Part shown: piece by piece, positions 4,785-55,635 of the stretch
Numbering within the stretch: position 1 is the first letter of the stretch
Layout: every line of letters begins with the position of its first letter
DNA from: Acidobacteriota bacterium
GTDB taxonomy: Bacteria; Acidobacteriota; Vicinamibacteria; Vicinamibacterales; UBA2999
NCBI GenBank assembly: GCA_030697165.1
Contig: JAUYQQ010000008.1
Location: 67,001-131,000, forward strand
Direction of reading: 5' to 3'
Length of the DNA stretch: 64,000 nucleotides
Position numbers and translations under genes: made by a program
Notes under the pieces: model-generated
Database searches by the model: none
What the model was told of the DNA's origin: nothing
Seen by the model: the letters and a program-made list of their open reading frames with translations, nothing else

Positions 4785-4855
4785 AACAGGAGATCAGGAG
4801 TCCATGAGCGCCTTTTTCCTGAAGATCTGGTCTCTTGAGCTCTTGACCTCCTGTT
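4785..4855. repeat. AGGAG-family inverted repeat, copy 1
   Basis: The left arm begins AACAGGAGATCAGGAGT. The right arm ends CTCTTGACCTCCTGTT, the complement of the same motif, with a loop region between. It lies in the divergent gap between the ino1 and methyltransferase starts, so here it cannot serve simply as a gene-end terminator. One of six copies in the window. Confidence 0.85.
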
Positions 4856-4867
4856 ACTCTGGAGCCC

Positions 4868-5440
4868 ATGATCGGCATCTTTCTCCGGCTGCTCAAGTCC
4901 AGCCAAGCCCGCGCGATGGACCCGCTCCAGGTGTCGATGACCGGCGTCCGCATGGGCGAGCGGTTCCTGCTGGTGGGCTGCCACGATCGCGCGTTGCTGT
5001 CAGGCCTGGCCGCCAAGGCGGGCTTGAGCGGCACGGCCGCGGTCGCGACCCTGGATGCGGCCTCGGCGAGACGCGCCGCCGCGGTCGGCGCCAAGGTCGG
5101 CGCCCTGATCGACGTGCGGCCGATCGACGACCGCCGCCTGCCCTTCGACGGCGACCAGTTCGACATGGTCGTCATCGACGACACCGACGGCAGCTTCGCC
5201 GCGATCGCGGCGGCCGCGCGCCTCGACTACCTGCGCGACGCGCTGCGCGTGGTGCGCGCGGGTGGGCGGGTTGAAGTGGTGGAAGGTCTCGGCGGTGGCG
5301 GGCTGTTCCGCGGCGCGGTTTCGCGCCCGCCGGGCTACGACATGCTGCGCGACCTCGCGGCCACCGGCTTCAAGCCGTCGCGGCTGCTCGCCGAGAAAGA
5401 CGGTTTCCGCTTTCTCGAAGGCCTGCGCCCCAACTCATAA
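4868..5440 (+). CDS. Methyltransferase-like (class I Rossmann) protein
   Basis: A 190-residue cytosolic protein with the outline of a class I SAM-dependent methyltransferase: a glycine-poor nucleotide loop (RFLLVGCHDRAL, about 32-43), an acidic block at the end of the next strand, FDMVVIDDTDG near residue 103, and a motif resembling post-I loops, LRVVRAGGRVEVVE, near 127. The first motif lacks the usual GxGxG, so cofactor binding is doubtful. The start is ATG at 4868, preceded by TGGAG. It converges with the FHA gene; the two coding ends overlap by 6 bp (5435-5440). Substrate unknown. Confidence 0.65.
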   Translation: MIGIFLRLLKSSQARAMDPLQVSMTGVRMGERFLLVGCHDRALLSGLAAKAGLSGTAAVATLDAASARRAAAVGAKVGALIDVRPIDDRRLPFDGDQFDMVVIDDTDGSFAAIAAAARLDYLRDALRVVRAGGRVEVVEGLGGGGLFRGAVSRPPGYDMLRDLAATGFKPSRLLAEKDGFRFLEGLRPNS

Positions 5441-5740
5441 ATGCGTCGTGGTTGGCGGGTCGTCGGCCGCCTCGACGATGAACCAGCCTTTGACGTTGCC
5501 GAACTCGATCTCGTCGCCATCGGCGAGCACGCGCCGGCCGGCGAGCGGTTCGTTCTGCACCGCGGTGCCGTTCTTGCTCTCGAGGTCTTCGACGTGCGCC
5601 TCGCCGTCTTTGATGGTGATGCGCGCGTGGGCGCGCGAAACGCTGGAGTCGTTGAGGCACACCGTGGACTTCGGATCGCGGCCAATCGTGTTGTTGCCGT
5701 AGGCCAGCACATACCGTCGATGGCCGATGCGCAGGCTCAT
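5435..5740 (-). CDS. FHA domain protein
   Basis: A forkhead-associated domain occupies essentially the whole 101-residue protein. Such domains bind phosphothreonine peptides and usually read Ser/Thr kinase output. Diagnostic motifs are NTIGRDP, SSVSRAHARI and ESKNGTAVQN, the last covering the conserved SKNGT block. The open frame extends upstream to 5833, but I choose ATG at 5740 (MSLRIGHRRY). It has GGGAATGG in front, and the upstream codons run into a degenerate repeat. An ATG at 5746 is an alternative. No kinase is adjacent; the window has one active-looking Ser/Thr kinase at 57.4-60.1 kb. The 3' end overlaps the convergent methyltransferase-like gene. Confidence 0.88.
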   Translation of the reverse strand: MSLRIGHRRYVLAYGNNTIGRDPKSTVCLNDSSVSRAHARITIKDGEAHVEDLESKNGTAVQNEPLAGRRVLADGDEIEFGNVKGWFIVEAADDPPTTTHL

Positions 5741-5919
5741 CACCATTCCCGGATGGTAGCTCAGGACGAACGGCAGGTGACACCGTCCCCAAAGCACCAC
5801 AAAAGACCGGGGACCAGATTGGAAAGATTCCACGAAAACAGGCCGAAAAGGCTGATCATGGAGCCTGAGTCCCCGGCGGCCACAACGGCAAGGCTTTTGC
5901 CTTTACACGAACCGTAGCC
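5741..5919. other. Divergent intergenic region with a degenerate REP-like segment
   Basis: The 179-bp gap between the FHA start and the TonB start. Around 5775-5815 it holds GGTGACACCGTCCCC followed by CCGGGGACC, imperfectly complementary and reminiscent of REP sequences linked to REP-associated transposases. A small hairpin AAGGC-TTTT-GCCTT sits at 5890-5903, 16 bp before the TonB start. I see no confident promoter. Confidence 0.4.
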
Positions 5920-7017
5920 ATGCTTGGAAACCTCCCTCCGGACGTCTATACGGCCCGCGACATCGCGGAGGCGGGCGGGGTGTCTGAGGCCCGGGTGCTG
6001 GACCTGCTGGCCCGCGGCGAGATCCGGTCGGTGTCGGCTCAATCGCCCATCGGCGGGCAGTCCGGGCTGGACGGCTTCGTCGCGCAGGCCGAGGCGGTTC
6101 GCGCGGTGCGGGCGCTGCGGGCCGGAAGCCCGGTCGGCATCGCCGGCGAACTCGGCCTGGGCCGTGAGCTCTTCGCACAAGGTTTTCGCCCGAAGCATTC
6201 AACCACCGTGCCCCTGGTCGTATCGACGAGCCTGCACGGTGCCGCCATCGCCTCCATCCTGTTCATTGCCAGCCTCGGGCTGGCGGTCGCCGACGAGCGA
6301 ACCGAACCGATCAAGGACGAACCCATCCGCATGGTGTTCCTGGTCTCACCGGGACCTGGTGGTGGCGGCGGAGGTGGCGGGTTGATGCAGAAAGCGCCGC
6401 CGCCGAAGGCCGCGCGCAAGGGCGTGGAGAAAATCAGCAGCCCGCTGCCGGCGCGCAAGCTGCCGCCGCCCATGCGCCCCACTCCGAGGCCGCCCGAGCC
6501 GCCGCCGCCGCCCCTCGAGGCGAAGATGTTGCCGCCGGTGATGGCGCCCATCGCCAGCAAGCCCGCGGAAGCCGAGAACCGCGAAGGCGTCCTCGCGAAA
6601 GCACCAGCGACGCCGCCCAGCCAGGGTCCAGGCATCGGCGGTGGCGCGGGCACCGGACGCGGCACCGGCCTTGGCGAAGGTGACGGTAGCGGCGTTGGCG
6701 ATGGATCCGGTGGCGGCACCGGCGGCGGACCGTTCCGTCCCGGCAGCGGCGTGGAACCGCCGCGCCTGCTGCGCGAGGTGAAGGCCGACTACACGGACGA
6801 GGCTCGGCGCGCGAACATCGAAGGCGAAGTGGAACTGGAGATCGTGGTGCGGCGCGACGGCACCGTCGGCGACGTGAAGGTGCTGCGCGGGCTGCGCGGC
6901 GGGTTGAGTGACCGCGCGATCCAGGCGGTGCGCCAGTGGCGCTTCTCGCCGGGCCGCATGAAGGGCACGCCGGTCGATGTCGTCGTGCAGGTCGGCGTCG
7001 AGTTCAGGCTTCGTTAG
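5920..7017 (+). CDS. TonB-family energy transducer with N-terminal helix-turn-helix
   Basis: Couples the proton motive force to outer-membrane TonB-dependent receptors. The 365-residue layout is unusual. Residues 10-40 (YTARDIAEAGGVSEARVLDL) resemble a MerR/excisionase-type helix-turn-helix and would lie in the cytoplasm. One membrane helix spans about 97-124. The periplasmic arm is proline-rich (156-210) and glycine-rich (235-275). The TonB C-terminal domain covers about 276-365, with DYTDEARRANIEGEVELEI and AIQAVRQWRFSPGRMKGTPV. Canonical TonB has only a short cytoplasmic tail. The start is ATG at 5920. ExbB and ExbD are not in the window. The FxLYD-like gene follows after 46 bp in the same direction. 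Confidence 0.88.
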   Translation: MLGNLPPDVYTARDIAEAGGVSEARVLDLLARGEIRSVSAQSPIGGQSGLDGFVAQAEAVRAVRALRAGSPVGIAGELGLGRELFAQGFRPKHSTTVPLVVSTSLHGAAIASILFIASLGLAVADERTEPIKDEPIRMVFLVSPGPGGGGGGGGLMQKAPPPKAARKGVEKISSPLPARKLPPPMRPTPRPPEPPPPPLEAKMLPPVMAPIASKPAEAENREGVLAKAPATPPSQGPGIGGGAGTGRGTGLGEGDGSGVGDGSGGGTGGGPFRPGSGVEPPRLLREVKADYTDEARRANIEGEVELEIVVRRDGTVGDVKVLRGLRGGLSDRAIQAVRQWRFSPGRMKGTPVDVVVQVGVEFRLR

Positions 7018-7063
7018 GGCGGGTCGGACAGGTCGGGCGGGTAAGGTTGTGGGGACGGAGAAC

Positions 7064-7936
7064 ATGGAAACAGCGCTGCTCGGCATAACGGTGATCTCGC
7101 TGGTGGTCGCGCTCGTGATGAGCGTGACGGCGTGGCGTCTGGCGCGCGACGAGAAGCGGCGGTCGGCGGCCCGCGTCGCCGCGCTGTCGATCGCCGCCGC
7201 CGCTCCCGGTGATGCGTCGAACTCCGGCGGCCAGGGCCTGGCGCCGGATGCCATCGGTTTTCAGGCGCACCCTGTGATTGTTGAAAAACCGCGCCCGCGC
7301 GCGCCGTGGGCGCCGGCGCCGGTCGCGGCCGAGGCCATGCGGCGGTCGGCCTTCGTGGCGCCTCCGCCGGTGCCCGAACTGCCGCTGCACACCACTCCGT
7401 CGCGCAACCTTTCGCACGCATCGGGCTTCCTGGGCGCCCAAAGCGAACCGGCGTTGCAGGCCAGTGGCGGGCAACGGTCGCTCGCGGTGGCTGCGGCCGT
7501 GCTGTTGGTCGTCCTGGCTGGCTCGCTGGCGTGGACGATGTCGGCGCCGCGCGGCACGAGCGCGGCCGCCGTGGGCCCCAACAGCCCGCTCGAACTGGTG
7601 TCGCTGCGCCACGATCGGAAGAACGAGAAGATCGCCGTCTCGGGCCTGGTTCGCAATCCGGCCGCCGGCAAGCCGGTGGAACGCCTGGCGGCGGTGGTGT
7701 TCCTGTTCGATCGCCAGGGCACCTTCGTGACCAGCGCCAAGGCCGACGTCGACTTCCTCAAGCTGGGCAGCGGCGACGAGTCGCCGTTCGTGGTGTCGCT
7801 CGACGCACCGGCGACCGTGGCGCGCTATCGCGTAAGCTTCCGGACAGATGAGGGCGTGGTGCCGCACATCGATCGCCGTGGCGCCACCCCGATTGCGACC
7901 GAGGGCGAACAGCCCGTCAGCGTGACGTTGAAGTGA
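7064..7936 (+). CDS. Membrane protein with FxLYD-like C-terminal domain
   Basis: A 290-residue protein with two hydrophobic segments: one at the N-terminus (METALLGITVISLVVALVMS) and one near residues 140-158 (LAVAAAVLLVVLAGSLAW). Between them is a low-complexity Pro/Ala linker. The periplasmic C-terminus, about 175-285, is a beta-rich domain resembling FxLYD domains (SPLELVSLRHDRKNEKIAVS, then VVFLFDRQGTFVTSAKADVD). The start is ATG at 7064 with GGACGGAG eight bases upstream; the open frame extends further 5' but without such a site. It lies between the TonB gene and the VWFA gene and probably forms an operon with them. Function unknown. Confidence 0.72.
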   Translation: METALLGITVISLVVALVMSVTAWRLARDEKRRSAARVAALSIAAAAPGDASNSGGQGLAPDAIGFQAHPVIVEKPRPRAPWAPAPVAAEAMRRSAFVAPPPVPELPLHTTPSRNLSHASGFLGAQSEPALQASGGQRSLAVAAAVLLVVLAGSLAWTMSAPRGTSAAAVGPNSPLELVSLRHDRKNEKIAVSGLVRNPAAGKPVERLAAVVFLFDRQGTFVTSAKADVDFLKLGSGDESPFVVSLDAPATVARYRVSFRTDEGVVPHIDRRGATPIATEGEQPVSVTLK

Positions 7937-7944
7937 GAGGGATT

Positions 7945-9124: not shown

Positions 9125-9147
9125 CCGCTGTAGTGGACATATCCGGG

Positions 9148-9192: not shown

Positions 9193-9744
9193 ATGAAGTC
9201 AGTTCTCGCATCAGCACTCGTCGCCCTGTTCGTTGTTACCACGCCCGCCTGGGCACAAGAGCGCCAAGACCTGCAGGTGTTCAACGACATCGCCGGCCAG
9301 GTCAATCGCTACACGCAGCTCACGATCTTCGACAGCATCTCGGCCGAAGTGATCGACGGCAAAGTGCGGCTCACCGGCTGGGTGACCATGCCGTACAAGC
9401 GCGACGACCTCGAGAGGCGCGTCCGCAAGGTCGAAGGAGTGGCGTCACTCGACAACCAGATCGGCGTGCTGCCAGTCTCGCAGTTTGACGATGACCTGCG
9501 GTTCAGGATCGCTCGCGCCATCTACGGCCACTCGTCGTTCTGGAACTACGCGATGATGGCCAACCCCCCAATTCGCGTCGTCGTCAACCGCGGGCGCGTG
9601 ACGCTCGAGGGCGTCGTCAACAGCAACGTCGAACGAATGCTGGCACGCTCGCTGGCATCGGGGTTCGGGGCGCTTGAAGTGACGAACGCCCTGAAGACCG
9701 ACGCCGAGGTCCGGGCGTCGATGGAGCCGCGTAGAACGAATTAA
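9193..9744 (+). CDS. Periplasmic BON-domain protein
   Basis: A 183-residue exported protein with a clear signal peptide (MKSVLASALVALFVVTTPAWA). Two BON (OsmY/nodulation) domains follow: about 25-90 (FDSISAEVIDGKVRLTGWVT) and about 95-165 (PIRVVVNRGRVTLEGVVN). BON domains are associated with phospholipid binding and envelope stress. The start is ATG at 9193, chosen for GGGAGG at 9181-9186. The sequence TAGTGGAC near 9131 is repeated inverted as GTCCACTA just before the start, so the 5' leader could fold. The TAA stop (9742-9744) overlaps the left edge of an AGGAG-family inverted repeat. Confidence 0.85.
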   Translation: MKSVLASALVALFVVTTPAWAQERQDLQVFNDIAGQVNRYTQLTIFDSISAEVIDGKVRLTGWVTMPYKRDDLERRVRKVEGVASLDNQIGVLPVSQFDDDLRFRIARAIYGHSSFWNYAMMANPPIRVVVNRGRVTLEGVVNSNVERMLARSLASGFGALEVTNALKTDAEVRASMEPRRTN

Positions 9745-9794
9745 CAGGAGTTCAGGAGATCAAGAATTAACTCTTTAACTCCTGATCTCCTGTT
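9743..9794. repeat. AGGAG-family inverted repeat, copy 2
   Basis: The left arm reads AACAGGAGTTCAGGAGATC and the right arm AACTCCTGATCTCCTGTT. It separates the convergent BON and lipoprotein genes. The BON stop TAA overlaps its left edge, and the last 8 codons of the lipoprotein gene plus its stop are read from its right arm. Confidence 0.88.
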
Positions 9795-22175: not shown

Positions 22176-22230
22176 AACAGGAGGGGAGGAGATCAGGAGT
22201 TGTTTTTCTCCTAAGCTCCTGGTCTCTTGT
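22176..22230. repeat. AGGAG-family inverted repeat, copy 3
   Basis: The left arm is AACAGGAGGGGAGGAGATCA and the right arm CTCCTAAGCTCCTGGTCTCT. It lies between two co-directional minus-strand genes, upstream of the DUF1015-serA-serC run and downstream of the M23 peptidase stop. Confidence 0.82.
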
Positions 22231-22235
22231 GAAAC

Positions 22236-23486
22236 TTAGTTGTTGGCGGCGCGGGCGGCCGGCGAGCTGAACAGCAGCGACATGTAACGGTCGCGCTCGG
22301 ACGAGAACACGTTCTGCAGTCCGGCCGGAACGGGATCGCCGGGCGGCATGTTGCGGTGCTCGAGAACCGGGTTCACGTACCGCCCGCCCTTCTTCAAGCC
22401 GTAGTGCAGGTGAGGCCCGGTTGCGAGGCCGGTCATGCCGACCAGGCCGACCAGCTGGCCCTGGCTGATTCGCGCGCCCTGGCGAACCGCAATCGACGAC
22501 AGGTGCAAATACTCCGTCTCGTACCCGTTCGGGTGCCGCACCTTCACCGTTCGCCCGCCGCCGTTGGTCCAGCCGGCCAGCGTGACGACGCCGGGGGCGA
22601 CCGAAACCACCGGGGCACCGGTGTTGGCACTGTAGTCCACGCCGTTGTGGGCGCGCGCGTAGCCGAGCACGGGATGCTTGCGCGAAGTCGAGAATCGCGA
22701 GGTCACGCGCGGTTCGAACTTGAGCGGCGACTTCAGGAAGAAGCGCTTCAGCGAGCGACCCTGATCGTCGTAGTACGCCGCCGCGCCGCCCTCGGGCGTG
22801 AAGCGGATGGCGCGCAGCTGGCGGCCGACGTTCACGAACTCCGCGGCCAGGATGGGGCCATAGCCCGCCAGCTTGCCTTCGCGGGTCTGGCGCTCGACCA
22901 GCAGTCGGAAACTGTCGCCGGGCTGCAGGCCGGAGTTGAAGTCAATCTCGCCCGAGAACACATCGGCCAGTCCGAGCGCCAGGTCAATGCGTTCGCCTGC
23001 CTTGTCGAGCGCGGCCGACAGCGAGTTGGTGTCGCGATCGATCGCGCCTTCCACCATCACCACGGCCGTTTCCTTGGGGATGGGTTCGATCGCAGTGTGG
23101 AACCGCGGTGTGCCGTCGAGGGATCCGCGCGTCGCGGTCAGCCGCCGGTCGCCGTCAATTTCGTACTCGAAGCGGCGGACGCGGCCATCGAGCAGGCGAT
23201 CGATCAGGTAGGCCTGGCCGGCGCGGATGCGCCGCAGGTCGAACGCGCCGCCGATCGACGCCACCAGCACGGCCTTCTCGGGCCCTTCGATCAGGTGGCG
23301 ATCGAGCACCGCTGCAATGGTGGTACGCATGGGCACGAGCCCGGTCAGGTAGTCGGCATCACGCGCGAGCGCGATGTCGGTGCCGAGGCGTGCGATCGAG
23401 ACCGGATTGGCCGCCGACAGCCACATGGGCAGTGACGCGGCGGCGACAAGCAGGACGACAGCCGGGACCAGGAACCGTTTGCGCAT
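22236..23486 (-). CDS. M23 family murein endopeptidase
   Basis: Exported or membrane-anchored zinc peptidase that cuts peptidoglycan cross-links, similar to MepM. 416 residues from ATG at 23486. An N-terminal hydrophobic helix (RFLVPAVVLLVAAASLPMW) anchors or exports it. A middle region (about 60-270) resembles the non-catalytic domain of MepM. The LytM domain at about 280-390 has ligands in AHNGVDYSA and GPHLHYGL, and VAPGVVTLAGW is conserved. The open frame extends to 23543, but the extra residues add no recognisable feature. It is followed on the same strand by serine genes and preceded by the PEGA pseudokinase. Confidence 0.9.
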   Translation of the reverse strand: MRKRFLVPAVVLLVAAASLPMWLSAANPVSIARLGTDIALARDADYLTGLVPMRTTIAAVLDRHLIEGPEKAVLVASIGGAFDLRRIRAGQAYLIDRLLDGRVRRFEYEIDGDRRLTATRGSLDGTPRFHTAIEPIPKETAVVMVEGAIDRDTNSLSAALDKAGERIDLALGLADVFSGEIDFNSGLQPGDSFRLLVERQTREGKLAGYGPILAAEFVNVGRQLRAIRFTPEGGAAAYYDDQGRSLKRFFLKSPLKFEPRVTSRFSTSRKHPVLGYARAHNGVDYSANTGAPVVSVAPGVVTLAGWTNGGGRTVKVRHPNGYETEYLHLSSIAVRQGARISQGQLVGLVGMTGLATGPHLHYGLKKGGRYVNPVLEHRNMPPGDPVPAGLQNVFSSERDRYMSLLFSSPAARAANN

Positions 23487-23546: not shown

Positions 23547-25085
23547 TTAGCGCCGAGGTAAGGGGACGACCAGCTGCGCAGTAATGCCCGCGTCGATACG
23601 GACAGACTGGGTAACTTTGCGGCCACCAGATGCCTCGAGCACCACCTGGTGGTCGCCCGGGGCCAGGTCGCGAACCGTCACCGGCGTCGTCCCCCGGTTT
23701 TGGCCATCGATGGTCACCCGCGCGCCGGGCGGGTCGCTGCGCACGTCCAGGCCGCCCGTCTGGGCCACGTTCTGCAACTCGATGTACTGCGCGGTTTGCA
23801 CACCGGCCTGGATGGTCAGCGGAATGACGCGCGGTTCGGACTTGCCGCTCTGGACCTCGAGCACATACGCGCCCGACGGCAGCGAGAGGGTGAGCGGAGT
23901 CACGCCGCGTTCCTCTCCATCGATCGAGACGCGGGCCGCCACCGGCCGCGACTGCACGACCAGTTCGCCTTCGCCGGCGCGGGGCCCGCCGGAATCGCGG
24001 GTCCAGAGCCACAGGACCACGCCCGATAGCGCGATCACGAAGAGCATCAGCGCGAGCACCAACGGGTTTCGTGCCAGAGGTGCCAGAGGTGCCAGAGGTG
24101 CCAGGGGTGCCAGGGGTGCCTCGGGGGCGCTGGTGCCGAGTGCCGGTGCTACTGGGGTCGAGGCCGTGGGCGACTGCTCGAGCAGTGCGCCGACCTTGGC
24201 GACCCACTCGTCGAGGGCCGGGGACGAAGTCACGTAGGCACGATCGCTCGCCAGCACCGACTCGAACGCCACCTGGGCCTCGTGCGGCGACTGGAACGAG
24301 TTGCTGATGTCGAACTGCAGGGCGCGCGTCAGCCAGCTCGACAGTGCTTTTGAAAGCGGTGCCTTCGACAACGGTGCCGTCTCGCCGGCGCGGTGCTCGA
24401 CGGCCGAGTCGACGAGCGCGGACAGCTGGTTCGGGTATTCGTCCTCGGCCAGCGAACGGCCGAGCAGCAGCGACAGCGCGACCACGCCAATGGCATGGGC
24501 GTCGGCGCGCGGGTTGGCGCGCGGCAGGCCCGCCGATGGCGCCATGGTCACGCGGAAGTCGCGCCACAGCCGCTCGCGCCCGAAGTTCAACTTCTCGAGC
24601 GCCGGCCCAAACGCATGCTCCGCGATCACGAGCCGGCCCTGCGGCGTCACGATCAGCCGGTCGGGCGCCAGCGCACCAATGGCGGTCTCACGATTGTGGC
24701 GGCCAAACAGCGCGACCGCCGGCAGCAGCTGCCGCAGCAGGCCAATCACGACGGTGATATCGAGCGGCAGCCCGGTTGACGAAGCGACGGCCAGCATCTG
24801 CGAGAGGCGCCACCCGCCGGTGTCGTCGGAGACGAGCGTCAGCCGATCGGCTGACGGCCGATCGAGACGCCGCAGGTGCACGTAGGAGGCATGGCGGACG
24901 GCGGCAAACCGCGCCACGCGGTCGGCGAGCGCCGACACGAACCCGGCATGTTCGACGAGTGCCGGCGCCAGCTCGAGAATCTCGACTTCGTCGCCGCTAT
25001 CTGGATCGAGCCCGCGCACACGACGGCCAAAGCCATCGACGGCGCCGAGAGTGGGTTCGCTGACAGCTGGGAGCACTCGGATCAT
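23547..25085 (-). CDS. Pseudokinase-like protein with membrane helix and two PEGA domains
   Basis: 512 residues. The N-terminal half (about 20-280) has the layout of a bacterial Ser/Thr kinase but lacks its catalytic residues: the HRDxKxxN loop is IGALAPDRLIV and the DFG is EHAFG (157-160). One membrane helix spans about 341-361, preceded by an APLAPLAP run (323-337) encoded by a 9-bp tandem repeat. Two C-terminal PEGA domains follow (about 374-438 and 445-510; SRPVAARVSIDGEERGVTPL and SDPPGARVTIDGQNRGTTPV). It could be a cytoplasmic scaffold with a surface-binding exterior. The start is ATG at 25085. Confidence 0.75.
   Translation of the reverse strand: MIRVLPAVSEPTLGAVDGFGRRVRGLDPDSGDEVEILELAPALVEHAGFVSALADRVARFAAVRHASYVHLRRLDRPSADRLTLVSDDTGGWRLSQMLAVASSTGLPLDITVVIGLLRQLLPAVALFGRHNRETAIGALAPDRLIVTPQGRLVIAEHAFGPALEKLNFGRERLWRDFRVTMAPSAGLPRANPRADAHAIGVVALSLLLGRSLAEDEYPNQLSALVDSAVEHRAGETAPLSKAPLSKALSSWLTRALQFDISNSFQSPHEAQVAFESVLASDRAYVTSSPALDEWVAKVGALLEQSPTASTPVAPALGTSAPEAPLAPLAPLAPLAPLARNPLVLALMLFVIALSGVVLWLWTRDSGGPRAGEGELVVQSRPVAARVSIDGEERGVTPLTLSLPSGAYVLEVQSGKSEPRVIPLTIQAGVQTAQYIELQNVAQTGGLDVRSDPPGARVTIDGQNRGTTPVTVRDLAPGDHQVVLEASGGRKVTQSVRIDAGITAQLVVPLPRR
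24071..24115. repeat. 9-bp tandem repeat inside the pseudokinase gene
   Basis: Five head-to-tail copies of GTGCCAGAG/GTGCCAGGG, encoding on the minus strand the (Ala-Pro-Leu)n linker just before the membrane helix. Length variation would change linker length without a frameshift. Confidence 0.9.
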
Positions 25086-25321
25086 GGTGCAACGGCCCTT
25101 CCAGACTCGGTGGGATGGGCGTGGCTATGCTAACCCGAAGCAGGCCAGCCAGTTACCGGAAAAGCCGAGCGAACTTGGCCACAACCCGGCCGACGAATTT
25201 CTCCGGCCGGCGACAGTAGGGTAATCACAGGAGTTCAGGAGACCATGAGCTAACCAGGTCAAACCGGTGAACTCCTTAACTCCTGAACTCTTGTTACTTC
25301 CCGGGTTACGATCCGATCGAA
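25086..25321. other. Divergent intergenic region
   Basis: 236 bp between the pseudokinase and rmuC starts. The right half contains AGGAG-family copy 4. In the left half (25086-25225) I see only GC-rich sequence with CTCCGGCCGGCGAC and no promoter I can defend. Confidence 0.5.
25226..25295. repeat. AGGAG-family inverted repeat, copy 4
   Basis: The left arm is CACAGGAGTTCAGGAGACCA and the right arm CTTAACTCCTGAACTCTTGT. It ends 26 bp before the rmuC start in a divergent gap and would be part of the rmuC leader or promoter. Confidence 0.85.
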
Positions 25322-26536
25322 TTGGAATCAGCCCTCCCGATTGTGCTCGCCCTGGTGTTCGGCTTTACCGCCGGGTGGCTGCTGGCGTCTCGTTCCCGCG
25401 TTTCCCAGGACACCCATCTGCGCGAGTCGTTCGCGTCGCTCGCGGCCGCCACGCTCAAGTCGAGCACCGACGAGTTCATCAAGCTGGCCGACCAGAAGAT
25501 CGGCAACGTCCACAAGGAAGCGACCATCGACCTGACGCGCCGCCAGCAGGAACTGGGCTCGCTGGTGGCGCCGATCAAGGACACGCTGATCCAGGTCGAC
25601 GCCAAGCTGAAGGAGGTCGAGAAGAGCCGCGTCGACGACAGCGCCAGCATGCGGACCATGCTGAGCCTGGTCGGCCAGACGCAGCAGCAACTGCAACAGG
25701 AGACCCAGAACCTGGTGCGCGCGCTGCGCTCACCCGGCGTGCGCGGCCGCTGGGGCGAGGTGCAGTTGCGCAAGGTCGTCGAGCTCGCGGGCATGATGTC
25801 GCACTGCGACTTCGACGAGCAGCCAACCATCTTCACCGAATCGGGCCGGCTGCGGCCCGACATGATCATCAACCTGCCCGGCGGCCGCTCGATCGTCGTC
25901 GACGCCAAGGCGCCGCTCGAGGCGTTTCTCGACGCCCAGAGCGCGACCGACGATGGCGTGCGCAGCGGCAAGCTGGCCGACCACGTGCGCCAGGTGAAAG
26001 ACCACGTCACGAAGCTCGGCGCCAAGACCTACTGGGACCAGTTTCCGGCATCGCCCGAGATGGTGGTGCTGTTCCTGCCGGCCGAGGCTATTTACATGGC
26101 CGCGCTCGAGCAGGACGCGCTGCTGATCGACTACGGCGTGACGCGAAACGTGATCATCGCCAGCCCCCTGACCCTGATTGCGCTGCTAAGGGCCGCGGCC
26201 TTCGGTTGGAAGCAGGAGCGGCTGACCCTTAACGCCGAAGAGATCAGCCGGCTTGGAAAGCACCTGCACGATAGTGTAGCGACCATGGCGGAGCATCTTG
26301 AAGACCTGCGCAAGCGGATGGACGGCACGTTCGCGACCTTCAACAAGGTGGTTGGCTCGTTCGAGAGCAATGTTCTTGTGAAGGCCCGCCGGTTCCGCGA
26401 GCTCGGGGCGGGCAGCGCCAAGGAGATTCCGTTAATCGATCCGCTCGAGACGGTGGCGCGCAAACTCGACGCGCCGACACAACAGGGCCTACTGGACCAC
26501 GAAGCAACCGAAACTACCACAGGAGAGCGTTCATGA
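25322..26536 (+). CDS. rmuC: RmuC-family DNA recombination protein
   Basis: 404 residues, membrane-anchored by an N-terminal helix (LPIVLALVFGFTAGWLLA). A long coiled coil follows (about 40-130), then the conserved nuclease-like core: RSPGVRGRWGEVQLRKVVEL, MIINLPGGRSIVVDAKAPLE and YWDQFPASPEMVVLFLP. RmuC proteins limit inversions at short inverted repeats in E. coli. That is notable in a region full of inverted repeats, although the link here is only suggestive. The start is TTG at 25322; no better start precedes the helix. The stop overlaps the TPR gene start by 4 bp. Confidence 0.92.
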   Translation: MESALPIVLALVFGFTAGWLLASRSRVSQDTHLRESFASLAAATLKSSTDEFIKLADQKIGNVHKEATIDLTRRQQELGSLVAPIKDTLIQVDAKLKEVEKSRVDDSASMRTMLSLVGQTQQQLQQETQNLVRALRSPGVRGRWGEVQLRKVVELAGMMSHCDFDEQPTIFTESGRLRPDMIINLPGGRSIVVDAKAPLEAFLDAQSATDDGVRSGKLADHVRQVKDHVTKLGAKTYWDQFPASPEMVVLFLPAEAIYMAALEQDALLIDYGVTRNVIIASPLTLIALLRAAAFGWKQERLTLNAEEISRLGKHLHDSVATMAEHLEDLRKRMDGTFATFNKVVGSFESNVLVKARRFRELGAGSAKEIPLIDPLETVARKLDAPTQQGLLDHEATETTTGERS

Positions 26537-45424: not shown

Positions 45425-45480
45425 CACAGGAGACCAGGAGCTCAGGAGAAACTTTACTCCTGACCTCTTGACCTTCTGTT
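45425..45480. repeat. AGGAG-family inverted repeat, copy 5
   Basis: The left arm is CACAGGAGACCAGGAGCTCA and the right arm CTCCTGACCTCTTGACCTTC, ending TGTT. It lies between co-directional minus-strand genes: 2 bp from the dipeptidyl peptidase stop and 10 bp upstream of the HEAT-cyclophilin start, in that gene's 5' leader. Confidence 0.85.
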
Positions 45481-45481
45481 A

Positions 45482-47401
45482 TCAGAGCCTCGAATATTCG
45501 AGCATTTGCGCCGTGAGATCGCAAGGATACGAGATCTTCACGTCGATAATTGCGCCCGAGCCGTCGGTCACGGGCGCGAGCTTCGGCATCACGAAGCCAG
45601 TGTACGACGGCAATTTCAGGTGATCCACGCGGGCCACCACTTCGTCCCTCAGATCCGGGTCGAAATGCACGCCGTAGGTTTCGAACAGGTCACGAGCGGC
45701 GGCGTAGTCGCCTTCGGACTTGATGCGCTGCACTTCGGCCAGCAGCCGCGCCACGCCCGACCGGAACGCGTCGGAATCGTTCAGGACGAAAAAGGTCTTA
45801 CCGTCCCGCCGGCGCACGTCGATGGCCTTGGTGTTGGCGAGCAGCCAGTGAACAATCGCCTGGCGGTTGCGCATGTGGTCCTCTTCGAGCTGCGCGCCGA
45901 CGCGGACCCGGCGCAACTGCACGAGCGCGTTGCGCGCATACGCCTCGTACTCGGTCTGCACCACCGCCTGCTGCTCGTCGGCCGGCACCAGCCCGATTTT
46001 CGCGAGGTATGGGTCGGCGACGAAGTACAGCGCGACCAGGTCGGCGCGCGACTCCTCGAGCGCCGAATACTGCTCTTTCAGCAGGTCCTGCGGCGTCTGC
46101 TGGATGTGATCGGCCATGCGGCCGGAGCCGTGGCCGAGCACCTCGTGGATCTCGGTCGTCAACTCGCTCGCAAACGCACCCCACCGCTTCGCCCGCTCCA
46201 CCTCCGCATCGTCCCACGCAAACTCGTGGCGGTAGCTGTCGGGCATGGACTTCTCGTATGCCTCGAGGACGTTCGACAGCGACACCGACTTGCTGCCGTG
46301 CTCTTCGCGGATGCGCTGGTCGTTCGGCAGGTTGACGCCAATGGGCGTGATCGGCCCGGAGTCGCCAATTTCGATCACGACTTCAATCGCCATGGCTGAG
46401 ACGCCCTGCACCTTCGGCTTGCGGTACCGGGGATTGACGGGCAAGTGGTCCTCGAACCGCTGGGCGTGGGTCGCCAGCGCGCGGATCTTCTCGGTGCGCT
46501 CGTGGTTGGCGTAGTAGACGAGGCCCTCCCACGCGCCCTTCATGCCGCGGGCGTCCATGTAGACCTCGATGAAGCCGTTCATGGTGTCAACCGCGGTGTC
46601 GCGGTTCTGCACCCAGGCAATGTCGAACGCTTCGCGCTCGGCGTCGGCACCGGTTTCGTAGAACCGGATCAGCGCGGCGAGTGCCTTGCCCAGTGCCAGC
46701 GGCGCAAACGGCAGCGCGTCGCGCAGGTGGCCGACAATGCGGCGAATCTCGGCGTCGTAGAGGCCGCCGACCTTGTAGACCTCTTCGACGAGCGCGCCGT
46801 CGCGCATGGCCACGCGCGAGTTCAGCTGGTGCTGTTCGGTAAAGCCTTCGAGGTCGGCCATGGTCACGCCGTCGTAAAGGTTGTTGGCGCTCGCGACCAG
46901 GATGTCCTGGCCCTCGCCCGGGGTCTTGTTGGTGACCATGGGCTCGTAGTCGGGATCGAAGAACATGCGCGCGTACTTCTCGACGCGATCGCCGATGGTC
47001 TCGCCTTCGGCCAGCCCGAAGTCGGCGCCGTTGCGGGTGGCGATCTCCATCGCCTCCTTGACGCGGGCGCGATCGAGATTCAACAGGAACTTGCGCGCGG
47101 TCAGGTTGTTGTATGGACCGGTGTTGAGCCAGAACAGCTTGGTGTAGCGGGTCAGCTCGGCGAGCGTGTCGGCCGGCACCCCGTCGGCGTGCGTCAGCAC
47201 GCCTTCGAGCAGCGCACGCATGCCCAGGTTGTGACGGTGACGCTGATCGTAATAGATGTCGCGCCCGGCAATGGCCGCCTGGTAGAGGTGCCAGACGAGC
47301 GTCTTCTCCTTGAGCGTCAGCTCGTCAAAGCCATCCGCATACAACTGGACGACAGCCGCTTCGTCAATCTGCTCGAGAAGATACGGACGTTCAGTAGTCA
47401 T
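45482..47401 (-). CDS. Dipeptidyl peptidase III family (M49) metallopeptidase
   Basis: 639 residues, cytosolic (no signal peptide). It releases dipeptides from peptide N-termini. The zinc signature is HEVLGH (419-424), the HExxGH of family M49 with its extra residue, and the third ligand is in EESRAD (449-454). Other conserved blocks are LFWLNTGPYNNLTARKF and IGVNLPNDQRIREEHGSKS. The usual EECRAE has Ser for Cys here. I choose ATG at 47401 (MTTERPYLLEQ); the open frame to 47557 runs into the neighbouring gene. The beta-CASP gene stop is 2 bp upstream, so the two are co-transcribed. Confidence 0.92.
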   Translation of the reverse strand: MTTERPYLLEQIDEAAVVQLYADGFDELTLKEKTLVWHLYQAAIAGRDIYYDQRHRHNLGMRALLEGVLTHADGVPADTLAELTRYTKLFWLNTGPYNNLTARKFLLNLDRARVKEAMEIATRNGADFGLAEGETIGDRVEKYARMFFDPDYEPMVTNKTPGEGQDILVASANNLYDGVTMADLEGFTEQHQLNSRVAMRDGALVEEVYKVGGLYDAEIRRIVGHLRDALPFAPLALGKALAALIRFYETGADAEREAFDIAWVQNRDTAVDTMNGFIEVYMDARGMKGAWEGLVYYANHERTEKIRALATHAQRFEDHLPVNPRYRKPKVQGVSAMAIEVVIEIGDSGPITPIGVNLPNDQRIREEHGSKSVSLSNVLEAYEKSMPDSYRHEFAWDDAEVERAKRWGAFASELTTEIHEVLGHGSGRMADHIQQTPQDLLKEQYSALEESRADLVALYFVADPYLAKIGLVPADEQQAVVQTEYEAYARNALVQLRRVRVGAQLEEDHMRNRQAIVHWLLANTKAIDVRRRDGKTFFVLNDSDAFRSGVARLLAEVQRIKSEGDYAAARDLFETYGVHFDPDLRDEVVARVDHLKLPSYTGFVMPKLAPVTDGSGAIIDVKISYPCDLTAQMLEYSRL

Positions 47402-48801: not shown

Positions 48802-48920
48802 AGCCGTATCATAGCCACAGAGGACACAGAGGACGCAGAGCCAATTCTTCAAAATGCGGCCGGTTCGAAGCCTGATCGCATTCAAAAGACTTAACTTTGT
48901 GTCCTCTGTGTCCTCTGTGG
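48802..48920. repeat. CCACAGAGG-family inverted repeat
   Basis: The left arm CCACAGAGGACACAGAGGAC with following GCAGAG (48815-48840) and the right arm GTGTCCTCTGTGTCCTCTGT ending GG (to 48920) enclose a 56-bp middle. The repeat covers nearly the whole gap between the beta-CASP start and the small membrane protein stop, whose TAA (48921-48923) directly abuts the right arm. Confidence 0.85.
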
Positions 48921-49172
48921 TTAAAGTACGTTCATCACCACGGTGATGGCCCGGCCGATCATCTTGAGCAGGGACTCGAGCACGGGCAGCAGATCACCGC
49001 GTTCCATCACCGCGGCCGCCGTGACCGGGTCGCTGACGAGCAACCACAACGCGAGCGCCGCGACCGGCGCCAACACGACGGCGCCGACGCTGACGGTGCT
49101 GAACACACGCCCCCAGAAGCGGCTCTTTGGCAGCTCGCGGCGGCGGTCGGTGGCGGCGTTCGTAAACGGCAT
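48921..49172 (-). CDS. Small one-helix membrane protein
   Basis: 83 residues from ATG at 49172. A basic, polar N-terminus (TDRRRELPKSRFWGR) is followed by a hydrophobic helix (about 25-47, TVSVGAVVLAPVAALALWLL) and an amphipathic C-terminal segment (LLPVLESLLKMIGRAITVV). No family recognised. There is no clear ribosome site; a perfect hairpin (49186-49203) lies 13 bp upstream. Support comes only from a plausible start, membrane topology and position, so it could be spurious. Confidence 0.5.
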   Translation of the reverse strand: MPFTNAATDRRRELPKSRFWGRVFSTVSVGAVVLAPVAALALWLLVSDPVTAAAVMERGDLLPVLESLLKMIGRAITVVMNVL

Positions 49173-49641: not shown

Positions 49642-49711
49642 CCAGTAGCCAGTAGCCAGAAGCCAGAAGAGCTCATGTCTTCCTGGCATCTGGATACTGG
49701 CATCTGGCTAC
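49638..49711. repeat. GTAGCCA-family inverted repeat between convergent genes
   Basis: The left arm is (GTAGCCA)3 followed by GAAGCCAGAAGA; the right arm is TCTTCCTGGCATCTGGATAC, then TGGCATCTGGCTAC. The outermost TAG on each strand is the stop codon of the flanking gene: 49639-49641 plus, 49708-49710 minus. Confidence 0.88.
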
Positions 49712-49809
49712 TTGTCTTTGCGCTGACGGATCCATTCGCCGAGCGCCCAGGACGCGACCATCAGCGCGACCACGGCCACCAGGGCGATGAGAATTGGGCG
49801 GCTGGCCAT
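49708..49809 (-). CDS. 33-residue membrane micro-protein downstream of the symporter
   Basis: A single hydrophobic helix (RPILIALVAVVALMVASWAL) with a charged tail (GEWIRQRKDK). Its ATG overlaps the symporter stop (TGATG), so translation is probably coupled. Likely a small accessory subunit of the sodium symporter, by context. Its TAG stop lies in a repeat unit. Confidence 0.6.
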   Translation of the reverse strand: MASRPILIALVAVVALMVASWALGEWIRQRKDK

Positions 49810-51533: not shown

Positions 51534-51619
51534 CAGCGGGTGAAGTACGCCTGGAAAAGGTAGAGGACCGTCAAGGTGACGACCCAGACCACTGTCACCT
51601 TGATGTAAGTCTTGCCCAT
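51533..51619 (-). CDS. 28-residue membrane micro-protein upstream of the symporter
   Basis: Too short for usual gene callers. It encodes MGKTYIKVTVVWVVTLTVLY, then LFQAYFTR: a single helix with a YFTR end, resembling small symporter accessory proteins I recall as an annotated class. Its stop overlaps the symporter ATG (TGATG), and its ATG follows the upstream gene's stop by 5 bp. Context supports translation. Confidence 0.6.
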   Translation of the reverse strand: MGKTYIKVTVVWVVTLTVLYLFQAYFTR

Positions 51620-51624
51620 CGCTG

Positions 51625-53079
51625 TCACAGCTGCTGTACCCGTGCCTTGAGATTGGCGTCGGCGCGGTCGAGCGCCTCGCGCCGAAGGACCCAGCTCTCG
51701 CGATCGGTGTCGAGCAGCCGCCGCGACGCGCCAATGGCCCGGCCGGCCTCTTCGGGCGCCGGACCGCCGTAGGTCTTGCGCACGTTCACGAAATGCGCCG
51801 GGCTCAACACCTTCTGCAGGTCAGCCTCAGTGTATTCGAGCCGCCGCCCCAGAATGGCGCTCGACGCGCTGCCCAGCGCCGCCGACAGCGAGACCCCCGG
51901 ATCCTCGGTGAACGCCTTGAGCAGCAACGCGGCAATGGCGTGCGCCGAGCTGAATGGCAGGTCGTGATCCCGGACCAGCGTGTCGGCCAGCTCGGTCATG
52001 GTCGTGCCGCCATGCGCGGCGCGCGACGCCAGCTGTTCCACGTTGAAGTCGGCCAGCCGCATGGCCGCCGCGACCAGCGTGACCATGCGGATCGCATCGC
52101 CGAACATCGACGCCACCAGCGGCTGCAGGTCGTCTTCGGTGTCAACGATGTCGCCAAATGGGGTGTTGTGGACGGTGGTCACGATCGCCTGCGCCTGGCC
52201 CACCGCCTTGCTGCCAATGGCCCGCGCGTGCTCGAGCGCCACGGGGTTGCGCTTCTGCGGCATGATGCTGCTGCCCTGCACGAACCCGTCGCTCAGGCGC
52301 AGGTAGCCGAACTCCATCGTGCACCACAGCAGCAGGTCCTGGACGACGCGGCCGAGGCCGACGATGAGCGTGCTCGTGGCCGACACGCTTTCGAGCAGGT
52401 AATCGACCGTGGCAATGCTGCCGTAGGTGTTGCCGGTCGGCCCGCTGAAGCCCAGCAGTTCGCTGGTGCGGGTGCGATCGATCGGGAAGCCGGTGCCGGT
52501 AATGGCGCAGGCACCGAGCGGATTGCGGTTGGTGGACTCGAACGCCGCCGCCAGCCGCGTGGTGTCGCGCTCGAGCTGCTCGATCACGGCCAGCAGGTAA
52601 TGCGCAATGGTCGAGGGCTGGGCCGGCTGGGTGTGCGTGTGCGCGCCGTAGACGGTGTGCGTGTGGCGTTCGGCCAGCGCCAGCAGCGCGTCGCGCAGGT
52701 CCAGCGTCGCCGACGCCACCGCCGCGATGAACTCGCGCTGCCGAATCCGGTACATCGTCATGTCGATGTCGTTGCGGCTGCGGGCGGTGTGCAGGCGGCC
52801 GGCGACATCCTCGTCGCACGACTGCTTGATCAGCCGTTCGATGTAGAAGAACAGGTCTTCGTAGGTGCCGTCGTACAGCACCTGGCGCACGCGGTCGACC
52901 GAAATCCCGTCGAGCGCGGTGCGCAGCGAGCGGGCGTCTTCGTTTGTAATGATGCCCTGCTCGGTGAGCATCACCAGGTGGGCGTAGTTGATCGACATCA
53001 AGGGCGTGAGCAGCAGCTCCTTGGCGTCCTCGAAGTTCTCGTTGAGTACGTTGGCGACGTACTCGGGGGCAAATCTCAT
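51625..53079 (-). CDS. argH: Argininosuccinate lyase family enzyme
   Basis: 484 residues of the fumarase/aspartase superfamily. Conserved regions are LHTARSRNDID, HTHTQPAQPS, ITGTGFPIDR and the signature GSSIMPQKRNPVALE, with the catalytic serine loop. It cleaves argininosuccinate to arginine and fumarate if a true ArgH. The N-terminus lacks the usual WGGRF opening and begins MRFAPEYVANVLNENFEDAK, and RSRND is followed by Ile rather than Gln. No other arginine gene is nearby; it sits with a sodium symporter. A related lyase activity is therefore possible. Start ATG at 53079, 22 bp from the divergent acylase start. Confidence 0.8.
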   Translation of the reverse strand: MRFAPEYVANVLNENFEDAKELLLTPLMSINYAHLVMLTEQGIITNEDARSLRTALDGISVDRVRQVLYDGTYEDLFFYIERLIKQSCDEDVAGRLHTARSRNDIDMTMYRIRQREFIAAVASATLDLRDALLALAERHTHTVYGAHTHTQPAQPSTIAHYLLAVIEQLERDTTRLAAAFESTNRNPLGACAITGTGFPIDRTRTSELLGFSGPTGNTYGSIATVDYLLESVSATSTLIVGLGRVVQDLLLWCTMEFGYLRLSDGFVQGSSIMPQKRNPVALEHARAIGSKAVGQAQAIVTTVHNTPFGDIVDTEDDLQPLVASMFGDAIRMVTLVAAAMRLADFNVEQLASRAAHGGTTMTELADTLVRDHDLPFSSAHAIAALLLKAFTEDPGVSLSAALGSASSAILGRRLEYTEADLQKVLSPAHFVNVRKTYGGPAPEEAGRAIGASRRLLDTDRESWVLRREALDRADANLKARVQQL

Positions 53080-53101
53080 TACTAGCAGTATATTGCGGGT
53101 C

Positions 53102-55573
53102 ATGAAGCCACGACGCCCCCTCGCCGGCGCGCTATTCCTGATACTGGCCCTGACCTCGGCCGGGAGCACCCCCACCTCGGCCCAGCGGCCGGTCACCAGC
53201 ATCCAGGTCATGGGACTCAGCCAACCGGTGGAGATCCTGCGCGATCACTGGGGCATCAATCACATCTATGCCCAGAACGAAGCCGATCTCTTCTTCGCTC
53301 AAGGTTACGCGGCGGCTAAGGACCGGCTGTTCCAGTTCGAGATGTGGCGCCGCCAGGCAACCGGCACCGTCGCCGAAATCCTGGGGCCACGCGAGGCGCG
53401 GCGCGACCAGGGCGCCCGCCTCCACATGTTTCGTGGCGACCTGGACGATGAGCTGAACCGGTATCACCCACGCGGCAAGACGATCGTCGAGTCGTATGTG
53501 CGGGGCGTCAATGCCTACATCGCCGAGACCGAACAGAACGCGGCGCTCCTGCCGATGGAGTTCCGGATGCTCGGCATCACGCCGGGCCGCTGGACCCCCG
53601 CGGCGGTGATCTCGCGCCACCAGGCGCTGGCGGCGAATGCCGGCGAAGAAGCGCGATCGATGCGCGCGATCAAGGCAATTGGCATCGACGAGACCCGCGC
53701 GCTCATGTACTTCCAGGGCGGCAATCCCCGTTTCGAACTCGACGCCGCCATCGACCCGAAAACGTTTCCCGACAACGTGCTGGAGCTCTACACCGCGTTT
53801 CGCACCGCCATTCAGTTCCAGCCCGAAGATGTTTTGCCGGAGTTTCGAGGATCAGCGCAGGTCGCGGGTGGCCTGCCGAACCCGATTGCCGCTGACCCGG
53901 CCGGCCCGCTTTCGCTCGAGGCCGATCCGCGCGACATCGGGTCCAACAACTGGGTCGTGTCGGGATCGAAGACCGTCAGCACCAGGCCGATCATGGCCAA
54001 CGATCCGCACCGGGTGGTCGCGGCGCCGTCGCTGCGCTACTGGGTGCACCTGGTGGCCCCGGGCTGGAACGTAATCGGCGGTGGCGAGCCCGTACTGCCC
54101 GGCGTGTCGATTGGCCACAACGAACATGGCGCGTGGGGCCTCACGATCTTCGGCCAGGACACGGAGGACCTCTACGTGTACGACACCAACCCCGCCAATG
54201 CCAACGAGTATCGATACAAGGGCGGCTGGGAGCCCATGCGGGTGATCGCCGACACCATTCCCGTGAAGGGCGCGAAGCCCGAAGCCGTGCAGTTGAAGTA
54301 CACGCGCCACGGTCCCGTGGTGTTCGAAGACCGCGCCAACCGCAAGGCCTACGCCCTGCGCGCGGGCTGGATGGAACCGGGCAGCGCGCCCTACCTGGCC
54401 AGCCTCCGCATGAACCAGGCCCGCAACTGGGAGGAGTTCCTCGAGGCGTGCAGCCACAACCAGATGCCCTCGGAGAACATGGTGTGGGCGGATCGCAGCG
54501 GCACGATCGGCTGGCAGGCGTCGGGCATCCAGCCAATCCGCCGCAACTGGAGCGGCGTGCTGCCGGTTCCGGGTGATGGCCGGTACGAATGGGATGGCTA
54601 CCTGCCGATCAAGGCGCTGCCGTCCGAGACCAATCCGTCGCGCGGCTTCATTGCCACGGCCAATAACTACCTGCTGCCCGAGACCTATCCCTACAAGGAT
54701 CTGCTGCACGTCACCAACTGGGCCGATGCGTTCCGCGCCTCGCGCATCACCGAAGTGCTTGGGTCAGGCCGGCTCTTCACCATTCCGGAGATGGCGCGGT
54801 TGCAAAACGACGATCTGTCGGTCGTGGCTCGTGCGCTGACACCGCTGTTGATGCGCGTGGCGCTGTCGAATCCTGCGAGCGCGAAGGCGCGCGACCTGCT
54901 GGCGAACTGGGACTTCGTCCTCGACCAGGATTCAACCGCCGCCGGCGTCTACGCGATGTGGCAGCGGCGAATCCTCGCCAACACGCGCGACGTGGTCGTG
55001 CCGGAGGCACTCCGCAAGGCGGGCATCACGCCGGTCGCGACCAAGCGGATGATTGACTGGCTGCACGCGCCCGATGGCCGCTTTGGCCCCAACCCCATCG
55101 CCGGCCGGGACGCGCTGGTCGCACGCAGCATGGATGAAGCCGTCGCGGAACTCACGAAGCGGTTCGGTCCCGACATGCAGGGCTGGCAGTACGGACAGGA
55201 GCGGTATCACCACGCGCGGCTCACGCACCCGTTGTCGGCAGCGGTCAACGCCGCCACGCGCGCCAGGCTTGAAGTTGGTCCGCTGCCCAGGGGCGGCGAC
55301 AGCATGACGGTGAGCGCGACGGGCGCCGGCGACAACCAGACCGCTGGCGGGTCGCTCAAGATCATCGCCGACACGGACGACTGGGACAACTCCGTGGGCA
55401 TCAATACCCCGGGACAGTCGGGCGATCCCGACAGCCCGCACTACCGAGATCTGTTTGAACTGTGGGCGCAGGGCTCGTACTTCCCCGTCGCCTACTCGCG
55501 CACGAAGGTTGAGTCAGTAACCAAGGGCGTCACCCGGCTTACCCCAGCGACGCCCGGCGCCCAAAGAGAATAA
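53102..55573 (+). CDS. Penicillin acylase-family amidohydrolase
   Basis: 823-residue exported Ntn hydrolase precursor (signal peptide ALFLILALTSAGSTPTSA). It should self-cleave into alpha and beta subunits before the nucleophile Ser in DIGSNNWVVSGSKT, near residue 280. Typical blocks are DHWGINHIYAQNEADLFFAQ, GYAAAKDRLFQFEMWRRQ, PIMANDPHR and IGHNEHGAWGLT. It hydrolyses N-acyl bonds, such as beta-lactam side chains, acyl-homoserine lactones or other amides; the specific substrate is unknown. Start ATG at 53102. The TAA stop (55571-55573) overlaps an AGGAG-family repeat. Confidence 0.92.
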   Translation: MKPRRPLAGALFLILALTSAGSTPTSAQRPVTSIQVMGLSQPVEILRDHWGINHIYAQNEADLFFAQGYAAAKDRLFQFEMWRRQATGTVAEILGPREARRDQGARLHMFRGDLDDELNRYHPRGKTIVESYVRGVNAYIAETEQNAALLPMEFRMLGITPGRWTPAAVISRHQALAANAGEEARSMRAIKAIGIDETRALMYFQGGNPRFELDAAIDPKTFPDNVLELYTAFRTAIQFQPEDVLPEFRGSAQVAGGLPNPIAADPAGPLSLEADPRDIGSNNWVVSGSKTVSTRPIMANDPHRVVAAPSLRYWVHLVAPGWNVIGGGEPVLPGVSIGHNEHGAWGLTIFGQDTEDLYVYDTNPANANEYRYKGGWEPMRVIADTIPVKGAKPEAVQLKYTRHGPVVFEDRANRKAYALRAGWMEPGSAPYLASLRMNQARNWEEFLEACSHNQMPSENMVWADRSGTIGWQASGIQPIRRNWSGVLPVPGDGRYEWDGYLPIKALPSETNPSRGFIATANNYLLPETYPYKDLLHVTNWADAFRASRITEVLGSGRLFTIPEMARLQNDDLSVVARALTPLLMRVALSNPASAKARDLLANWDFVLDQDSTAAGVYAMWQRRILANTRDVVVPEALRKAGITPVATKRMIDWLHAPDGRFGPNPIAGRDALVARSMDEAVAELTKRFGPDMQGWQYGQERYHHARLTHPLSAAVNAATRARLEVGPLPRGGDSMTVSATGAGDNQTAGGSLKIIADTDDWDNSVGINTPGQSGDPDSPHYRDLFELWAQGSYFPVAYSRTKVESVTKGVTRLTPATPGAQRE

Positions 55574-55635
55574 ACAGGAGATCAGGAGACAAAGAGAAAG
55601 AATTGGGTTCCTCCTGAACTCTTGATCTCCTGTTT
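55572..55635. repeat. AGGAG-family inverted repeat, copy 6
   Basis: The left arm is AAACAGGAGATCAGGAGAC and the right arm CTCCTGAACTCTTGATCTCC, ending TGTTT. It lies between convergent acylase and DinB genes; the acylase stop TAA overlaps its left edge. Confidence 0.88.

Follow-up and report, generated by a model that had tools for sequence, protein, structure and literature searches.

Repetitive extragenic palindromic (REP) sequences and bacterial interspersed mosaic elements (BIMEs) are short extragenic palindromes of high copy number, found together with REP-associated tyrosine transposases (RAYTs) (PMC2817692, PMC3733652). In Escherichia coli, an action at a nearby stop codon has been proposed for 260 of the 496 REPs of one study; the RepRanger set, as described in the same source, has 446 of 4,072 REPs within 15 nt of a stop codon (PMC12306157). 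A further kind of repeat has been reported in Acidobacteria such as Koribacter, the "TIRtrons" with their TIRYT transposases, where terminal inverted repeats (TIRs) flank a Y1 transposase gene and some form repeat families (PMC3733652). Here we describe a family of hairpin-forming inverted repeats, built from CARGAG-type units, six copies of which lie in a 64,000-nucleotide stretch of an Acidobacteriota genome of the Vicinamibacterales (assembly GCA_030697165.1, contig JAUYQQ010000008.1, positions 67,001 to 131,000, forward strand; hereafter the window).

These palindromes look like a family of gene-end elements not previously described, and they resemble a known kind of bacterial repeat. As with REPs, they are short, extragenic and numerous. 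REPs of RAYTs are described as 20-40 nt long with a GTAG or CGTC tag at one end, whereas the present family carries no tag, measures 48 nt plus a loop and has three 8-nt units in each arm; furthermore, 68 of the 85 copies collected lie within 15 nt of a stop codon or overlap it, and none was found at the Y1 transposase loci examined. The TIR repeats of TIRtrons are likewise dispersed inverted repeats unrelated to REPs and come from the same phylum, but as described they flank a Y1 transposase gene (PMC3733652), whereas our hairpin occurs at 0 of 35 Y1 loci; the two are set apart here by description, not by sequence. The family therefore resembles REPs in placement and number while lacking the features that define RAYT-associated REPs and TIRYT-associated TIR repeats. 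For a miniature inverted-repeat transposable element (MITE) of the DDE type a target-site duplication would be expected, and it was not found. Bidirectional intrinsic terminators are similar in having a stem and a T-rich tract directly behind stop codons and in being enriched between convergent genes, and differ from the family in its single fixed stem sequence, weak T-tract and occasional divergent copies. Paired DNA uptake sequences, as described, also consist of a sequence-specific short unit in hairpin-forming inverted pairs (PMC2267715); in contrast, the family has three units per arm and is hardly ever single or coding. Literature searches for three motif strings returned only papers unrelated by title, and a search for Vicinamibacter together with repeats found nothing.

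Structure and copy number of the family

The family consensus is AACAGGAGNTCAGGAGNTCARGAG, followed by a loop of 0-50 nt and the mirror arm. Each 24-nt arm comprises three 8-nt units, AAC-AGGAG-NTC-AGGAG-NTC-ARGAG, mirrored in the other arm, and the element ends are fixed (AAC...GTT), with flanks that show an A/T bias only. The original prediction had proposed six such copies, two each between divergent, convergent and co-directional genes; all are present and in these settings (Table 1), and their loops do differ in both length and sequence. Point changes between copies are also found; what had been suggested as unit shuffling is for the most part a matter of two kinds of freely varying position, the linker bases and the second base in units 2 and 3. 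With up to two mismatches allowed, the window contains 22 matches to a two-unit motif where dinucleotide shuffles predict 1.8, and 21 of the 22 fall within or overlap the six hairpins. A covariance model whose seed included four of the six copies scores all six at 45-67 bits on the better strand, and the two non-seed copies still reach 45.3 bits (22176) and 47.6 bits (25226); the next-best match in the window, with 24.2 bits at 48816, is a different repeat. In folding predictions, five copies reach z-scores of -2.7 to -7.3, with 0-2 of 200 shuffles folding as well, and c3 is weaker (z -2.4; 7 of 200 shuffles equal). A scan of the window against Rfam at the gathering score gave 0 matches.

The claim of a dispersed multi-copy family that varies between copies is borne out across the genome, and the search for further copies beyond the window was positive. 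There are 60 exact matches to AGGAGATCAGGAG in the genome, compared with 0 for the reversed pattern, and the covariance model scored 150 of 1,194 candidates. Two 400-kb stretches (800 kb in total) yield 29 model hits and, with a strand-symmetric scan, 27 copies, against 0 in the reversed sequence. The latter divide into 18 copies in C8:1-400000, a stretch chosen because the window lies there and in which six are the window's own, and nine in C15:1-400000. Extrapolation gives 182 copies per genome, or 154 without the window, which we express as an estimate of 150-180. For the analyses below, 58 further copies, taken from stretches selected around hits of the model or of a pattern, were added to the 27, making a set of 85; the 21 symmetric-scan copies of the 800 kb that lie outside the window serve as unselected copies.

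Placement at gene ends

According to gene calls by a codon model trained on the same genome, 31 of the 85 copies are convergent, 44 co-directional and nine divergent, and one lies within a called gene, so that 84 of 85 are extragenic when overlap with gene ends is allowed. Many copies nearly touch the stop codon: for 51 of the 75 that are convergent or co-directional, it lies no more than 5 nt away. The unselected copies strengthen this evidence: 10 are convergent, 10 co-directional and one divergent, and 20 of the 21 have a stop within 15 nt or overlapping. The window is atypical in holding two divergent copies. It was from these two that the elements had been judged "not simply terminators", an argument that loses its footing with nine divergent copies among 85, one among the 21 unselected, and 20 of those 21 near a stop. 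Over the 800 kb, a sample that contains the window, 12 of the 29 model hits are convergent, and convergent gaps make up 8.6 of the 74.9 kb of intergenic DNA.

Among co-directional copies, 40 of 44 are nearer to the stop than to the start, including all 11 in gaps of at least 200 nt. For 29 of the 44 the distance to the stop is at most 5 nt or the two overlap, whereas 5,000 random placements in the same gaps gave 13.3 such copies on average and never more than 23. Small gaps alone are therefore insufficient to explain the stop-side placement. At 21 of 106 stop-facing ends the stop codon overlaps the element by two bases, and it is always TAA; for comparison, TAA terminates 163 of 642 genes overall. 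The placement recurs in the relatives G002 and G008: of their 20 non-divergent copies, 13 lie no further than 5 nt from a stop.

An A-rich stretch precedes the palindrome and a T-rich stretch follows it, with a mean of 3.0 T in the 8 nt past the hairpin compared with 1.5 in intergenic 8-mers. When the count starts at the terminal TT, 66 of the 106 ends reach 4 T or more in 8 nt, the criterion used for the U-tract of intrinsic terminators (at least 4 U in 8 nt, as defined in PMC13289151). Overall, this is a symmetric element that looks like a terminator and has a modest T-tract. Under a strict rule, classical terminators proved rare at gene ends: they were found at one of 92 with the hairpin, and at three of 169 convergent and two of 187 co-directional ends without it.

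Conservation of the core

Across the 800 kb, 52 two-unit motifs lie in hairpins and three outside, with about one expected; two of these three belong to one eroded hairpin, and none is wholly coding. When copies are picked by one good arm, the 110 opposite arms average 97% consensus in the core, a figure somewhat inflated because most core positions are part of the scan pattern, and 72% in the linkers and the first base. Of these 110 arms, 106 nonetheless reach 17-20 of 20, although about 13-14 would have been enough. Two pairs of orthologous arms are identical at 40 of 48 and 39 of 48 bases, as alike as random copies (mean 81% in the better orientation), which suggests turnover of the free positions around a core that was kept. 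We read this as selection on the sequence itself, the alternative being continued copying from a conserved source.

Orthologous sites and distribution

The window is syntenic over long stretches with several members of the genus, with median protein identities of 73-85% in the five compared. Intact orthologous hairpins are found at three of the six sites (c2 in G008, c3 in G002 and c4 on one G006 contig), and fragments at c3 in G003 (one arm) and at c4 on another G006 contig and in G005. Copy c5 is eroded to the left arm and a further part in G008 and to the right arm only in G003. No AGGAG hairpin is present at c1 in any of the four aligned relatives (0/4), or at c6 in G008, the only relative comparable there. 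Sites have thus been gained and lost at orthologous positions, and this turnover is seen among sister species. Conservation at the same places as ordinary terminators across distant relatives, which had been named as the counter-case, is not what we observe within the genus, the sole range of comparison.

Some sites carry another repeat instead. At c3, relatives G008, G005 and G006 have a CACAGAGG-type array in place of the hairpin, and at c6 G008 has a different, GATCTGGTGATTTGG-type inverted array; conversely, the site 49642-49808 holds a CAGTAGC array in our genome and an AGGAG hairpin in G008. Gaps with and without a repeat in the own genome were compared for how many relatives hold one, using a detector that missed three of the six AGGAG copies. 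The counts gave no sign above chance that orthologous gaps keep some repeat (with vs without: co-directional 6/23 vs 11/56, convergent 2/13 vs 2/4, divergent 0/2 vs 3/9), and the swaps are therefore reported as cases and not as a rule.

The two-unit motif occurs in seven of eight genus relatives, in five of 16 other genomes of the family (1-3 matches) and in five of 15 other genomes of the order, two of which, from other families, have 12 and 21 matches. In one of these two, G032, the single locus inspected (L039) is a clear, imperfect full hairpin. A strict full-hairpin pattern was found in three of 396 genomes of the phylum, all of the own genus; this pattern finds only 12 of the estimated 150-180 own copies and would miss L039, so little can be concluded from its absence elsewhere. 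Of the 42 stretches with the three-unit arm in the named genomes scanned, 33 came from Acidobacteria, Acidobacteriota, Acidobacterium or Vicinamibacteria, and the remaining nine from cyanobacteria and others, some of them lacking a mirror arm.

Y1 transposases and loops

The genome contains six Y1 transposase domains and the window none, in agreement with the statement that the window holds no complete transposase as far as this class, the only one checked, is concerned. Two of the six, when translated, look RAYT-like to us by their motifs. The search for a REP-associated tyrosine transposase that had been suggested thus found candidate enzymes, but no hairpin beside them: it is absent from all six own loci and from all 29 relatives' loci examined (out of 83 matches), within about 1.5 kb on each side and with a model cut-off of E≤1. 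At one locus (L213, 1198-1325), copies of another palindrome, GGCGATGGCTTCAGCCGTCGCC, adjoin a Y1 transposase domain and possibly form a true REP/RAYT pair.

A search for target-site duplications of 2-9 bp at four boundary offsets detected none, the observed values being close to those of shuffled sequence. Whole copies of recent origin were not seen either: the best pair is 87% identical, with arms alone reaching 94%. The notion of an expanding, mobile or gene-converting repeat is not supported by these values or by orthologous arms that are no more alike than random ones. The 52 own loops share 18 7-mers (3.4 in shuffles, maximum 12), and when pooled with those of other genomes 124 (29.6 in shuffles, maximum 58), foremost TTTTGAA/TTCAAAA; this sharing above shuffles points to a probable descent of the copies from common full-length elements. 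The idea of a TTTT-N-AAAA centre common to the loops was considered and rejected, this motif being enriched in the loops of other genomes and not in our own (4.42 vs 4.49 shuffled), where AAAA-N-TTTT is enriched.

Features of the window and other repeats

Pfam matches of 10 of the 12 genes adjoining the hairpins (Table 1) comprise an inositol-phosphate synthase, a weak methyltransferase match, a BON-domain protein, DUF1015, an M23 peptidase, RmuC, a cyclophilin/HEAT protein, a penicillin amidase and DinB, with one gene lacking a match.

Table 1. The six hairpin copies of the window, with their gene settings as given by the codon-model calls (window coordinates; strand in brackets)
Copy	Element	Arms	Setting	Adjoining genes and stops
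c1	4785-4855	4785-4808 + 4832-4855	divergent gap	inositol-1-phosphate-synthase-like gene 3422-4732 (-); gene 4868-5440 (+), called start 12 nt past hairpin
c2	9743-9794	9743-9766 + 9771-9794	convergent genes	(+) gene TAA 9742-9744 covers first two element bases; (-) gene called stop 9767-9769 inside element
c3	22176-22231	22176-22199 + 22208-22231	co-directional (-) gap	4 nt behind stop of 22236-23486
c4	25226-25295	25226-25249 + 25272-25295	divergent gap	before RmuC-family gene 25343-26536 (+)
c5	45425-45480	45425-45448 + 45457-45480	co-directional (-) gap	1 nt behind stop of 45482-47401
c6	55573-55634	55573-55596 + 55611-55634	convergent genes; fills 65-nt gap	TAA 55571-55573 runs into element

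Other repeats occur in the window and elsewhere in the genome. At 48805-48930 there is an inverted short-unit repeat of CCACAGAGGACACAGAGGACGCAGAG and its complement, of the same type as at the c3 site in G008, G005 and G006. Positions 1805-1914 hold tandem and inverted 14-nt units of GGTTCAACCACGGA, and related-looking arrays, GGTTCCTCACGAGG, fill the c1 gap in G002. Convergent gaps at 49642-49808, C8:260015 and C15:176783 contain CAGTAGC-type inverted arrays in which the TAG stops are part of the unit. By eye, the convergent gaps of C8 and C15 (L071-L110) carry many unrelated short-unit arrays and REP-like palindromes at gene ends, for example GTCCGGCTTTAGCCGGAC, GTAGGGGCGCACTTTAGTGCGCCCCTAC and AGGGTGCCTAAGGTGCC. 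A stretch at 24071-24149, inside the called gene 23547-25085, has several similar places in its own genome and about thirty in G006 by BLAST.

Discussion

With slightly better than even confidence, we take the palindromes to be one family of short gene-end elements that would act as terminator-like or 3'-end hairpins, a function suggested by their sequence and placement. The transcript would fold into a hairpin in which three 8-nt CARGAG units pair with their complement, with a T-rich tract next to it. Such a hairpin could make transcript 3' ends, either as a bidirectional terminator of the intrinsic kind or by blocking decay, an arrangement that would suit convergent gene pairs. Possibly, the fixed CARGAG sequence, rather than any stem, is read by a sequence-specific factor. 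A more elaborate version, which we regard as improbable, would be a sequence-coded gene-end signal of three CARGAG units per arm at 8-nt spacing with a preferred mismatch in the middle unit, where a dedicated DNA- or RNA-binding factor terminates transcription or guards 3' ends, and where sites swap among unrelated short-unit repeat families as species diverge.

Several observations weigh against a role as terminators or 3'-end hairpins. Nine of the 85 copies, two of them among the six of the window, lie in divergent gaps, and it is hard to see what a terminator would do there. As many as 40 of the 106 ends lack 4 T in 8 nt, and for co-directional copies the T-tract is almost as frequent on the other side (28/44 downstream, 20/44 upstream on the opposite strand). 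No RNA covariation between arms was detected in either the 27 pattern-seeded or the 85 symmetric-scan copies. When co-directional copies are read on the transcript strand, G.U pairs (82) barely exceed A.C mismatches (68); RNA pairing is therefore not visibly selected base by base. The conservation of the core, as noted, is in part a product of the scan pattern. Finally, the second base of the middle unit (position 13) is mismatched beyond chance, which a hairpin of this function did not predict: 27 of 85 copies are concordant and 40.9 would be expected (p 0.0006, for the most extreme of six positions retested). In 51 of the 85 copies one arm has G at this base and its partner has A. The asymmetry has no relation to the direction of transcription (11 with, 14 against) and was not replicated in G002 and G008, where 9 of 21 copies, a small number, are discordant; possible reasons are that long perfect palindromes are unstable or that one strand has to be marked. 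The CAGGAG core, kept as sequence while the arms show no covariation, hints at a sequence-specific reader.

The most serious competitor to the 3'-end hairpin is a family of selfish REP- or MITE-like elements, copied by an enzyme acting in trans and surviving best behind stop codons, where insertion is least harmful. We consider this unlikely, though in its favour stand the presence, absence and erosion of copies at orthologous sites, the patchy phylogeny of the two-unit motif, the defined AAC/GTT ends, the loop 7-mers common to copies above shuffles and the presence of Y1 transposases in the genome. The missing target-site duplication is not decisive here, as Y1 enzymes leave none. Recent whole copies are lacking, however, with 87% identity in the best pair, and the hairpin is absent from the six own Y1 loci and from the 29 examined among the relatives' 83. 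Moreover, the number of Y1 transposases does not track that of motifs, G007 having 13 Y1 and 0 motifs and G002 one Y1 and 81 motifs, and a conserved core with free linkers fits constraint better than neutral decay.

Two other explanations appear much less probable still. The repeats might be paired DNA signals for another protein, such as uptake-signal-like motifs that double as terminators near stops, which would agree with the conservation of sequence rather than pairing but which we judge highly unlikely. Uptake sequences occur also singly and inside genes, whereas in the 800 kb three of 55 two-unit motifs lie outside the scanned hairpins and none is wholly coding. The likeness is to the hairpin-forming inverted pairs described as uptake-sequence terminators (PMC2267715). 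Least probable in our view, and only by a little, is that slippage and template switching build short-unit inverted arrays as by-products and that the family is one of many such arrays. Many other short-unit tandem or inverted arrays, some embedding a stop codon, do occupy the convergent gaps of the same genome. Against this origin, each arm in the model and scan hits counts three units and its ends are special, although the number three is built into the scan pattern; the loops have k-mers common to copies, and the two arms of one copy match each other no better than they match the arms of other copies.

The family is large, consists of palindromes at gene ends and comes from a phylum that has received little study. 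What it conserves is the sequence and not the base pairing, and it shows no link to the REP-type transposases examined. If the hairpins do make transcript ends, the family would be a case of repeats serving as terminators that are swapped for other repeats at the same gene borders, and this, if true, would bear on the origin and turnover of bacterial terminators.

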